Shown here piece by piece: positions 12,377-19,717 of a DNA stretch of 64,000 nt. The notes under the pieces are model-generated. The model worked only from the letters and a program-made list of their open reading frames with translations, was not told where the DNA came from and searched no databases. Position 1 is the first letter of the stretch, and every line of letters starts with the position of its first letter. The translations under genes and the position numbers were made by a program. The stretch spans positions 36,781,001 through 36,845,000 of the forward strand of contig NC_091671.1 of the NCBI RefSeq assembly GCF_042453785.1. The letters are read 5' to 3'. The stretch is from Malus domestica. Its lineage: Eukaryota > Streptophyta > Magnoliopsida > Rosales > Rosaceae.

Positions 12377-13729
12377 ATGGGTGATAGAAGAAGGCGTAAC
12401 AGGGCAATGGAGATGGCACAATACCAAGCAAGGCTTGACATTGAGGAATCAGAACTGATCAACGCCGAAGCTGAACTTGTAAACTCGTTTATGCAATATG
12501 AGCACCATGGCGAATCTAGCCATCGTGGTTCTGTCACGGGGCGTTCATTCGTGCAGCGTGATAGAGAAGAGTGTCATGACCAAATGATGAAAGATTATTT
12601 CATTGAGCGGCCGAGATTTCCTGCTCATAATTTTCGGAGGCGGTTTTGGATGAGGAGAGAGCTTTTTGAAGGCATCTTGAACGCAGTTGTCAATCATGAC
12701 CACTACTTTGCAAGGAAGATAGATGTCGTAGGCCGACAAAGTCTATCACCTCATCAAAAGCTTACATTTGCATTTCGAATGCTAGCTAATGGGTGCTCTG
12801 CTGACTCAACTGACGAATATTGCCGACTTGCGGAGAGTACTGCTATTGAGAACCTAAAGCGCTTCTGTCAAGCAATTCAAGCCATCTATGGAGCCACATA
12901 CCTCCGCAAGCCAACTCGTGAAGACTTGAAAAGGCTTCTACGCAAGGCAGACAAAAGAGGCTTCCCTGGCATGATAGAAAGTCTCGATTGTATGCATTGG
13001 GAGTGGAAGAATTGTCCTACTGGTTGGGCTGGCCAATTCAAGGGCCGTCATAACAAGCCAACCATCGTGTTGGAGGCTGTGGCATCTTACAACACATGGA
13101 TTTGGCATGCATTCTTCGGCTCTCCCGGATCAAACAACGATATCAACGTTCTTTGGTCTTCTCCTCTGTTCGATGAGGTTGTGAATGGATGGGCACCAGA
13201 ATTTCGATACAAGGTAAATGGTAATAGGTATGAGCTAGGTTACTACCTAACTGATGGTATTTATCCTAGTTGGTCTATCTTTGTCAAAAGTTTTTCTCAT
13301 CCCGATAGTGCAAAGAAGAAATTATTTTCGCAGAGGCAAGAGTCTTATAGGAAGGATGTAGAAAGAGCGTTTGGGATCTTACAAGCTCGATAGGTCATTG
13401 TTAGAGGGCCTGCACGACTTTGGCAACCCGAAGACCTCCATTCAATCATGATGACGTGCATAATTTTGCACAATATGATTGTGGAAGATGAGTACATCGA
13501 AATTGAAGAAGATTCAGACGAAGATGTGGATGATGACCAACCAACACATGCGAGAGCTATTGCAAGAGATGTTGAATATCTCGCTCCAACCACATATGAG
13601 ACCCGACATGATAGGGTCACCTTGGGTGAGTATATGAGACGTTTAAATAGAATTCAAGCTCCTCAAATTCATGACACACTCCGCAAGGATTTGGTTGAGC
13701 ATGTGTGGCGCCGAGAAGGTGAACATTGA
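12377..13729 (+). pseudogene. PIF/Harbinger transposase (DDE_Tnp_4), one in-frame stop
   Basis: Frame 12377-13393 (338 residues) and the same frame 13394-13729 are separated by one TAG at 13391-13393, where relatives have Phe in QAR-F-xIVRGPAR. The whole would be about 450 residues, normal for plant Harbinger transposases (also domesticated as ALP1). The N-terminus has an acidic helix (IEESELINAEAEL). The catalytic D, D and E are visible in ESLDCMHWEWKNC, GSNNDINVLWSSPLF and SYRKDVERAFGILQ. The C-terminus has MMTCIILHNMIVEDE and an acidic tail. It would cut and paste the element with help from the SANT-like partner. The stop could also be a sequencing or assembly artefact. Confidence 0.9.
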
Positions 13730-15766: not shown

Positions 15767-16521
15767 TTTGTTGGAAAATAATTCACGTCAAGAAAACGTC
15801 CAAACTAACAACAGCTATATCAAAAAAAATGGACAAGAAAGAAAAATGGGTATTTGTATCCAAGTAAACCCCACACGAAAAGAAAAAAAACACCCCACCC
15901 AACAAACTCAAATCGATGACATCCATACAGAAAGCACAGTAGCTAGCGTTTGTTTGCATCTTTCACTCTATCTGAAATTGAATTCCTAATCCATTTGCCA
16001 CCACACACAATGTATATATACACACACACACACACATAACACATACATCTTTATTTCTGTCTCTGTCAACTATGGGAAATATGTTGCAGGGCTTTGGCTT
16101 TTTTTCTTATGCCGCTCTACTCATTTTTCTATGCCTCCATTTGGAAGGCCAATATTATTCATATGCAAAAGGATGTGATTTTTTTCAAGGGAGTTGGGTT
16201 TATGATGATAGCTATCCACTCTATGACACATCGAGCTGCCCTTTCGTTGAGGAAGAGTTTGATTGCCAGAAAAATGGACGGCCAGACGATCAGTATCTCA
16301 AATATAGATGGAAGCCTGACGCATGTGCACTCCCAAGGTAACGATTTCCATGTTTTATATATGTAGAGCTCTACTGATACAGTTGAAGATTGACGTGATA
16401 TGAATTTCTTTAATCCTACATATATGTACATACGAGCTTTGTAAGTCGTTAGATTGTTTAGAGAGTAATGTTCTCTTGCCAGCATGGGTGGAGCCACATA
16501 CAAGCTTGAAGTAGTTGTGCC

Positions 16522-17594
16522 TAGGGATAGGCAAAATACCCATGAGTTTGGGTAATCGCGGTTATCTGCCAATCTTTCACAGTTACAGTTATGGGTAACC
16601 ATTTAGACGAATAAACGGTTATGGGTATAACCGTTTATCCGTAAAATTTAAATGGGCGGTTATGGGTATTACCCGTGGTTATAACGTGTATCCATCGGTT
16701 ATGGGTATTACCTGTGGGTATAACGGATATCCATTTACCCATTTAATTTAATATATGTAAAATTAAAAAAAAAATATTATAGGCCGTTGGATTGGTTATA
16801 CCCATTTAATTTAACATCGAAGTTATGTGGTTGAATTCGTATCTGATAGTTTTGTTTTTTCCCGTGTTTATATGTTTCTAAGGCTGGAAGAAGTTTGATG
16901 CTTTGTGTTGTCTGGTATATTACCTGGCAATGTACTGAAAAAATGCTTTCTACAATATTGAATGATGAATGTATTTGTCATTTTACTAGTATGGTGGTAT
17001 CCATCAGATAAACTTCTGTAGAATGGATCGATGGTTGAGTTACAGTAAGCAATTTCGGGATTCCCGATTTGTCCCAAAATTCTGAAACTATTTCGGAATT
17101 CTTGAAATTTTGGTATCGGTCTTGAAATTAAAGATTTGCTTGGGTGTAGCAGAAAAATATTGTTCGTAAACTATTATTTCAATTATTAGAATTGTATGAG
17201 GACTTAAATAATTAAAATAGGGAAATGCATGCTAAAATGCACCTATAATGGTGTTTAATTGTTAGAAAACAAAAAGCATTACAAAATTTTCTTTTGTAAT
17301 TTTCAAGTTGTTAAAAAAAAAAAAACATGTTGGCAGGTGAAAAAATGGGTAAATGGGTAAAAAAAGATAAATAGGTTCAAAAACGGGTAAATGCTTATGG
17401 TTAAATAGGTAAACGGTTATGGTTAAATGAGTACACGGTTATGGGTATGGTTAACCGTTTGTAAACAGTTATGGGTATAAGTATAACCGTTTATACAATT
17501 ATCCAACGGGTAAACGGTTATGTGGGTATGAACATAAATGGTTATGGGTAAATAACCGCGGTTACTCGTCCGCCATAACCGTTGCCCATCCCTA
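16522..17594. mobile_element. hAT non-autonomous element, 1.07 kb
   Basis: The ends TAGGGATAGGCAA and (reverse complement of right end) TAGGGATGGGCAA are inverted repeats. The 8-bp target duplication GTTGTGCC is perfect (16514-16521, 17595-17602), the hAT signature. The inner arms are tandem runs of CGGTTATGGGTA and its complement (16600-16745, 17395-17570), so the element can fold on itself. No transposase. It lies in TBL-B intron 1. Confidence 0.92.
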
Positions 17595-17812
17595 GTTGTG
17601 CCCCAACCCTCACAACCAGAATAGGCTAGCTCTGCGCTTAGTAGTATTGAGGCATTCAATTAAAATTTTCTTTAATCAAATGTTCAGGTTAACAGCCTTA
17701 TTAGACACCATTGGCCCCATAACTACTTATGTTGATAAAAGGAACCAATGTGTTGATAAATTAGTTGATAATATGAAAAATAACTCAATTTATAATTATA
17801 AGTACTTGCAAG

Positions 17813-19002
17813 CAGTGGCGGATCCAGGAATCTTACCTCAAGGGGTCGCAGTGTAAAAGTTCAAATAAAAATTTAGGATGGAAAAACATATTGAAAATGA
17901 AATCATAGTACTTTCATTCATAATTCATAGCGGAAACAATATTACAAACTATAATTGTCCACGACGAGATTTCATATTTTGAAAACGAAGCATTATAGCT
18001 TCATTTTCAATACAAGCAAAAATATCTCTCTCAATATAAACAAGCAAGCTATCACTCAACCATTGATCTCCCATTTTGTTCCTAAGTGGACCCTTAACAA
18101 TATTCATGACAGAAAATGCTCTCTCCACTGAAGCAGTTGCAACTGGTAAAACTAAAGACAATGTAATGAGCAAATATACATAATTGAATACTTGATGCAT
18201 CCTTGTCTCCACCATTTTTTTTGCAAGATCACCAATCCCTTCCAATTGAGAGAAATCACTACTGGAACACACATAACGAATAGAAATCACTACGTGTGCA
18301 GCCATGCGTGCCCATTTGTTCCCCATCTTGGCATGGAGTTCAACAATGAGACGTTCTTCTTCAGGAGTAAATGCCCCTTTCTTCAGGTTCGGCCTTAGGT
18401 TATTTGCCCATCGCAACCGGCAGCTTTTGCCACAACGGAACAGGCCTGAGTGCTTCTGAACGGCATTCCAGTTTCCCTCCCCATGCTTCTTAACATACTC
18501 CACCAAAATTGCATCTTCAGCCGAGGTCCATGGCCCTTTCTTTAGAACCATTCCACCATTTCCACTTCCTCCATTACTCTCATCCATCAACGGAGAATCA
18601 ATCTGATCCTTGGACAGCACTCCATCTTCACTCTCATTTGTTGTCCGACTCATCTCTTGATTTGTGATCAAAACTCATACCAAGAGCCAAGACCATGCAA
18701 AGAGCAGGCTGACAACCTGGAATAAAAAGAAAAATGAAAATGACAATAAACACAACCGTTGCAGTAGCTCTTGTTGCAGTAGCTCTTGTTGCTCATCAAC
18801 TTCAACTAGTTGTGTTTATTGTCACAAGCTCTTGCTGCTTCTTCTTCCTCTTCCTGCCGCTGCCGAGTCTTCTTCTTCCTCTTCCTGACGACGACCCCGA
18901 CGACCCCAGCTCTAAGAGGTCGCATATGGGAGCTTCAAGGTTGTTTCCATGGTTTCCAAGGGGTCGTGCGACCCCGACGACCCCACTGTGGATCCGCCCC
19001 TG
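17813..19002 (-). mobile_element. hAT element carrying a GAMYB gene fragment
   Basis: The left end CAGTGGCGGATCCAGG and the reverse complement of the right end CAGGGGCGGATCCACAG form the inverted repeat common to plant hAT elements. The 8-bp target duplication CTTGCAAG is perfect (17805-17812, 19003-19010). Inside, on minus, is one open frame (17949-18671) joining a MYB region to the hAT C-terminus. The rest of the transposase (BED finger, catalytic core) is absent, so it depends on another copy to move. It lies in TBL-B intron 1, 218 bases after another hAT. Confidence 0.93.
17949..18671 (-). CDS. R2R3-MYB (GAMYB type) fused to hAT dimerisation domain
   Basis: 240 residues, uninterrupted. 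Residues about 8-130 are GAMYB-like: start MSRTTNESEDG, linker ending LKKGPWTSAEDAILVEYVKK, R2 to KSCRLRWANNLRP, then most of R3 (KKGAFTPEEERLIVELHAKM to ARMAAH). The MYB sequence stops at AAH, where R2R3-MYB genes usually have their second intron; the recognition part of R3 (LPGRTDNEIKN) is missing. Residues about 131-240 are the hAT C-terminal dimerisation region: DFSQLEGIGDLAKKMVE, LVLPVATASVERAFSVMNIV, LRNKMGDQWL, RFQNMKSRRGQL. The join is near 18294. If made, it could bind DNA weakly through R2 and dimerise with hAT transposases. Whether it is transcribed is unknown; it is antisense to the TBL-B intron. Confidence 0.85.
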   Translation of the reverse strand: MITNQEMSRTTNESEDGVLSKDQIDSPLMDESNGGSGNGGMVLKKGPWTSAEDAILVEYVKKHGEGNWNAVQKHSGLFRCGKSCRLRWANNLRPNLKKGAFTPEEERLIVELHAKMGNKWARMAAHVVISIRYVCSSSDFSQLEGIGDLAKKMVETRMHQVFNYVYLLITLSLVLPVATASVERAFSVMNIVKGPLRNKMGDQWLSDSLLVYIERDIFACIENEAIMLRFQNMKSRRGQL

Positions 19003-19717
19003 CTTGCAAGGTTTCTCTTTTTATTGATGCGGGATTCTTTTACCTTCACATCCTAACATGCCCCCTCATGCATGACAAATTTTTAAACCAAACCTGTGGA
19101 CAATGCGAATTCAGTGACATGGAGCACGTGTGATCATTGAACCTATATTAGTTTCATGTACCACCTGAAACACCCACATATACACAATGCGACACAAACA
19201 CAAAATTTACAAATGTAAGGCACCGACACTTGCACCTTTTAATTCCCTTTTAAATAAGCATATGTAATTACTTGATAGAATTCGGATATATCACATATTT
19301 CTCATTTTTTTCAACATATATACATGGTACAGATTCAATGGGGAGGACATGCTGAGGAGGTTAAAGGGGAAAAAGATATTATTCGTAGGTGACTCTCTAA
19401 GCCTCAATCAGTGGCAATCGCTAACATGTATGTTGTATGCTGCAGTGCCGCAAACACATTATACTATAACAAGGAAAGAAGCCATCTCCACGTTTTCGTT
19501 GCCTGTGAGTTTTTCAGATATATCTATCTAGTTACAAAAGACTTTCTACCAACGATATATATGATTAGATATTAGGTTCCTAAACGAAGTGTTTATATGT
19601 AGCCTTTTGATCACTAACTGGTATACGTGGACAAGTACTATTGAACATTGATCTTAAAAGAGAATTGTTTTGTGCATTCAAAATAGTTATCATGCACTTT
19701 TCTTTAAAGAAAAAAAT

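Follow-up and report, generated by a model that had tools for sequence, protein, structure and literature searches.

Introduction

The way in which cut-and-paste elements pick up pieces of genes is still debated, and the closest described cases come from maize and from animals. Pack-hATs have been described in maize as Pack-TYPE elements that are non-autonomous, possess hAT ends and an 8-bp target duplication (TSD), and carry captured host gene DNA; one such hAT Pack-TYPE element is reported to extend an exon and to supply a new splice donor (PMC8903248). The maize elements Ds-l4-354 and Ds2-22 are hAT (Ac/Ds) elements containing gene fragments together with intron sequence from another chromosome; Ds-l4-354 includes part of a MYB gene, ZmMybst1, and the capture by Ds elements has been argued to go via genomic DNA (PMC3260210). 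In animals, Pack-TIRs have been attributed to gap filling or template switching, with microhomology at the breakpoints, and the multi-copy cases transpose (PMC8277862). The apple locus described here belongs to this known kind: the gene capture is real and well resolved, and the element is a Pack-TYPE hAT transposon carrying one exon of a GAMYB gene. It has the hAT ends, 8-bp TSD and captured host DNA of the non-autonomous maize Pack-hATs, the intron-bearing gene fragment from another chromosome known from the Ds elements, and breakpoint marks and a multi-copy state like those of Pack-TIRs. Literature searches on GAMYB with hAT capture and on apple or Malus Pack elements, covering titles and the beginnings of abstracts, did not find this case.

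The Element and Its Parent Family

The window is the whole 64-kb stretch of DNA analysed (C11:36781001-36845000), and the genome searched comprised 651 Mb in 19 contigs. The element is 1190 bp long and is read on the minus strand, with element base 1 (el 1) at position 19002 (Table 1). A sequence-only reading of the window had proposed a hAT element with a perfect 8-bp TSD and matched ends, and this description holds: CTTGCAAG stands on both sides, and the ends CAGTGGCGGATCCA and CAGGGGCGGATCCA have 13 of 14 bases alike, beyond which they diverge. The 21-mer made of TSD and TIR occurs once in the window, the mean across 100 shuffles being 0.00. The 8-bp TSD of hAT elements is perfect both here and in a second copy (GTCACGAG), and the short TIRs are common to a longer parent, since the same ends are found in eight elements of 3.3–3.6 kb. 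Between these ends lie 472 bp of GAMYB DNA from C2 and no complete transposase, as in Pack-TYPE elements, and movement after the capture is indicated by the same chimera standing at two sites with different TSDs. The MYB part could also have been a chance neighbouring gene; this was rejected, as el 241-712 sits between the hAT ends and the same chimera recurs elsewhere with another TSD.

Table 1. Features of the element in the window, in order of position (el numbers run along the minus strand).
Feature	Position	Strand	Remark
Left 8-bp TSD, CTTGCAAG	17805..17812		Perfect copy of right TSD
Pack-type hAT element	17813..19002	-	Copy 2 = 98.6% over 1190/1190, TSD GTCACGAG
hAT 3' end with transposase C-terminus, el 715-1190	17813..18288	-	98-99% in 37/40 matches listed
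Fused frame, 240 codons	17949..18671	-	MYB part + 112 hAT residues
Join 2, GTAGTGATTTCT, el 710-721	18282..18293	-	12-nt copy of hAT el 741-752, overlaps donor GTA
Captured GAMYB DNA, el 241-712	18291..18762	-	98.1% to C2 donor, L052:2718-3189
Captured exon, 423 nt	18294..18716	-	Acceptor TTATTCCAG (ending at 18717), donor site CAC|GTAGTG
Filler at join 1, el 170-243	18760..18833	-	Last 3 bases overlap donor match
hAT 5' end, el 1-169	18834..19002	-	Nearest relative C11:37106382-37106550, 98.2% ungapped
Right 8-bp TSD, CTTGCAAG	19003..19010		Perfect copy of left TSD

A genome search with the whole element gave at least 40 matches. Of the 40 scored and listed, two are full-length (the element itself and C11:8873013-8874202, hereafter copy 2), one covers el 241-712 and is the C2 donor, and 37 cover the 3' end only, from el 715 or 716. 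Twelve stretches were taken, nine of them hAT loci besides copy 2; eight of these nine show both ends by BLAST, and the ninth (L057) the 3' end only. The eight are the parent elements mentioned above: an ATG-started transposase frame of 792 residues was found in 8/8 examined, and 8-bp duplications flank the ends of 8/8. In the one parent whose transposase was compared with Pfam, DUF4371 matched at 1e-70, and Dimer_Tnp_hAT reached 15.5 bits, or 17.5 for the last 250 residues, with a cut-off of 21.4. The 3' ends of the eight parents are 98.1–98.7% identical to the element; at the 5' end, three of them match over 111–114 bases at 96–99% and five over 66 bases at 89–91%. A search with el 1-241 did not find an exact parent copy; L063 (around C11:37106382-37106550), which gave the best 5' match, resembles the parent L058 over the first 483 bases of L058 only.

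Further relatives were observed in the genome. Two more family matches at G000:C11:37090138-37106550, including the closest 5'-end relative, lie ~0.3 Mb from the window element, and local hopping is possible. At least eleven matches have a gapped 5' end (92–94% over el 1-158 or 1-169). One of them, L064 (G000:C16:23361230-23361700), has an inner sequence unlike the parent by eye, and matches of this type are perhaps another non-autonomous subfamily.

The Donor Gene

The GAMYB part as genome query gave eight candidates, all scored: the two element copies, one gene on C2 (99%), its homologue on C7 (95%; 93.4% over el 245-712) and four distant loci (73–75%). The search for the donor and for other copies in the element's own genome gave the C2 gene (L052) and, among the matches listed, one other copy, in agreement with the GAMYB-type donor that had been proposed from the sequence. 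The C2 gene additionally matches the miR159 target site without any mismatch at L052:4753-4772, and the element locus (L001) has no such site even when up to 3 mismatches are allowed. In L052 the exon MSRTTNESEDG...AAH is followed by GTAAGT and then, after AG, by a frame starting LPGRTDNEIKNYWNT, also readable as MPGRTD... when TTG is taken as start.

The captured piece comprises the last 46 nt of the intron before the acceptor, all 423 nt of the exon and the first 3 nt of the intron that follows, the predicted exon limits being placed by splice signals, conserved frames and the donor gene. The intron sequence on both sides therefore indicates that genomic DNA was copied, which rules out capture from mRNA. 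As the 5' edge of the capture lies inside an intron, the captured DNA probably brought no known GAMYB promoter. The splice donor site changed from GTAAGT in the gene to GTAGTG in the element, with GT kept. The sequence-only reading had the MYB part end at AAH, an exon border; the border is correct, and the capture extends 3 nt beyond it, an overshoot of the breakpoint that may be coincidence. It had likewise noted the rest of R3 as missing, and the next donor exon, starting LPGRTDNEIKNYWNT, was indeed not captured.

Breakpoints and Filler

Both joins carry short copied pieces. In the filler of join 1, el 179-194 (16 nt) is an inverted copy of el 247-262, in the donor intron; set against the C2 gene instead, this piece shows a single mismatch, which falls on a base where donor and element disagree. 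It is followed by inverted pieces of the transposase gene, the longest in the filler being 21 nt (el 194-214), with two further ones of 13 nt each (el 211-223 and el 226-238). As a control, 0/2000 random 74-mers from 20–63 kb of the window had a 21-nt match to the parent, a result that covers the 21-nt piece and not those of 11–13 nt. Near join 2, both element copies differ at el 720 and el 726 from every family member in the comparison (28/28, taken from the 37 3' ends listed), and the 12-nt local copy at this join (Table 1) would also explain the difference at el 720. The inverted donor and parent pieces and the 12-nt local copy are consistent with a repair process that switched templates, the mechanism put forward for Pack-TIRs (PMC8277862).

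The Fused Frame

The frame, which opens from TTG, is continuous across AAH-VVISIRY, confirming that the MYB half is joined in frame to the hATC end; its 112 C-terminal residues are the end of the hAT transposase, and the GAMYB start (MSRTTNESEDG) lies inside it as an ATG at el 350. Comparison of the 240 open codons with Pfam gave Myb_DNA-binding at 5.9e-27 in two stretches, and a weak match to Dimer_Tnp_hAT, at 20.7 bits with the whole fused frame (below the 21.4 cut-off) and 22.7 bits with the 112-residue hAT part alone (above it). The hATC match spans profile positions 31-83 in both the fused frame and the parent, and a shortening of this domain by the capture was rejected on these grounds.

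The MYB half is not a complete R2R3 protein: R2 is complete, and R3 ends at AAH with its remainder in the uncaptured exon. Only residues 4-89 of 119 in the solved WER R2R3 chain and 1-34 of 54 in the solved WER R3 chain (7fdl_B) are covered by it, and therefore the end of R3 is missing. This end of R3 holds the third helix of the repeat, the recognition helix with the main base contacts. An AlphaFold model of the fused frame, built with no alignment, had a mean pLDDT of 42.5, uninformative either way, and a structure-based argument was dropped for this reason.

The Second Copy and Selection

Copy 2 (at 8.87 Mb on C11) is the only other copy among the matches listed; it keeps the full length and differs from the window copy at 17/1190 bases. 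At six bases of the GAMYB part (el 243, 256, 272, 310, 315 and 613) the two copies agree with each other and differ from the C2 donor, and at four of these sites (256, 310, 315 and 613) the element carries the C7 state; the present donor allele therefore changed after the capture, or differs from the captured one. Within the frame, copy 2 has a stop (Q72*), T156I, E183K, M189I and one silent change, and the window copy has H91N, at a histidine kept in the donor, C7 and copy 2. The sequence-only reading had held that absence of expression, together with other copies lacking the open frame, would mark a dead capture: the latter is the state of the one other copy found (1/1), and the window frame is intact.

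The changes between copies amount to 5 nonsynonymous or nonsense against 1 synonymous, close to the ratio of sites (567 vs 153, ~3.7:1), whereas donor and C7 show constraint over the same exon (dN 0.025, dS 0.158). The MYB part of the window copy has one replacement only relative to the donor. The comparison gives no sign of selection on the fused frame, although so few changes would not reveal weak selection acting on the window copy.

Genomic Setting

The element sits in intron 1 (16338-19332, GT/AG borders) of a TBL-type gene on the plus strand, whose PMR5N exon precedes the element and whose PC-Esterase exons follow it (Pfam matches). The minus-strand orientation of the element places the captured exon antisense to this gene, with splice sites wrongly oriented for use in it. 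The window also contains, at 12377-13390 on the plus strand, a 338-residue frame matching Pfam Plant_tran (7e-78), a transposon protein that we take to be of the PIF/Harbinger type.

Discussion

We favour, with a probability of roughly 0.9, a Pack-TYPE hAT transposon in which gap repair captured GAMYB DNA from C2, which was then moved in trans and in which the fusion is incidental and decaying. The trigger would have been a break or gap within a parent element of ~3.3–3.6 kb; its repair would have copied a stretch of the C2 GAMYB gene with several template switches at the joins, so that filler and a single GAMYB exon took the place of ~2.7–3.0 kb of the parent. The resulting short element, keeping both ends, would have been moved by transposase supplied in trans, and would thus have come to stand at its two C11 sites. 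The in-frame fusion is most likely incidental: between two frames that are each open by inheritance, a join would fall in phase ~1 time in 3. Against this origin speak the intact window frame, whose MYB part is only one replacement away from the donor, the search for an exact parent copy that did not find one, and the inverted donor piece of only 16 nt. The fused protein looks, from its sequence, like a young by-product and not like a new working gene.

Other readings of the locus can be set against this one. It could encode an expressed new protein, in which the hAT dimerisation end follows an incomplete GAMYB DNA-binding region and which would act as a regulator or a dominant negative; the 240 open codons with the donor's own ATG, the complete R2 and an hATC stretch as complete as in the parent would allow it, but R3 is cut, the donor DNA begins 46 nt before an intron acceptor and probably lacks any known promoter, copy 2 has a stop, and H91N alters a residue otherwise kept, so that we regard this reading as barely credible. 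The working fusion regulator suggested by the sequence-only reading is accordingly left without support by the absent R3 end, Q72*, the 5:1 changes and the lack of a known promoter, and a functional MYB-hAT regulator appears unlikely. There is a slim chance that the element instead gives rise to small or antisense RNA directed at GAMYB, through a TBL-type pre-mRNA with ~470 nt complementary to it: the antisense position in a gene intron and the 98% identity to the donor favour this, and any effect would be independent of miR159, as the element locus has no such site, but introns are normally spliced out and then degraded. In a more specific form, intron 1 of the TBL-type gene might be a GAMYB-antisense carrier, miR159-independent and varying with the insertion among accessions, which we consider very improbable; if true, it would link a cell-wall gene to the silencing of a hormone-pathway regulator.

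The element might also be a mobile exon cassette, whose acceptor and donor sites could splice the exon into a gene upon sense insertion. The acceptor and the GT are retained, and the maize element with the lengthened exon offers a precedent (PMC8903248), but the element is antisense to its host gene at the window site and its donor site has changed as described, leaving this a very faint prospect.

The Pack-TYPE origin bears on how gene pieces are acquired, as the case is young and a single genome holds the donor, the family of the parent, the two breakpoints and another copy that has moved, with a filler that records template switches. It also illustrates how MYB and hAT sequences can come to be joined in frame although no evidence marks the product as a gene. 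Compared with the maize Pack-hATs (PMC8903248), this element belongs to another plant genome, its donor, parent family and both breakpoints are resolved, and the captured DNA is joined in frame to the transposase tail. Ds-l4-354 and Ds2-22 (PMC3260210) belong to the Ac/Ds family, whereas the parent transposase here matches DUF4371 and the captured MYB is GAMYB-type. Finally, in contrast with the animal Pack-TIRs (PMC8277862), this is a plant case, with a filler holding inverted pieces of both donor and parent.
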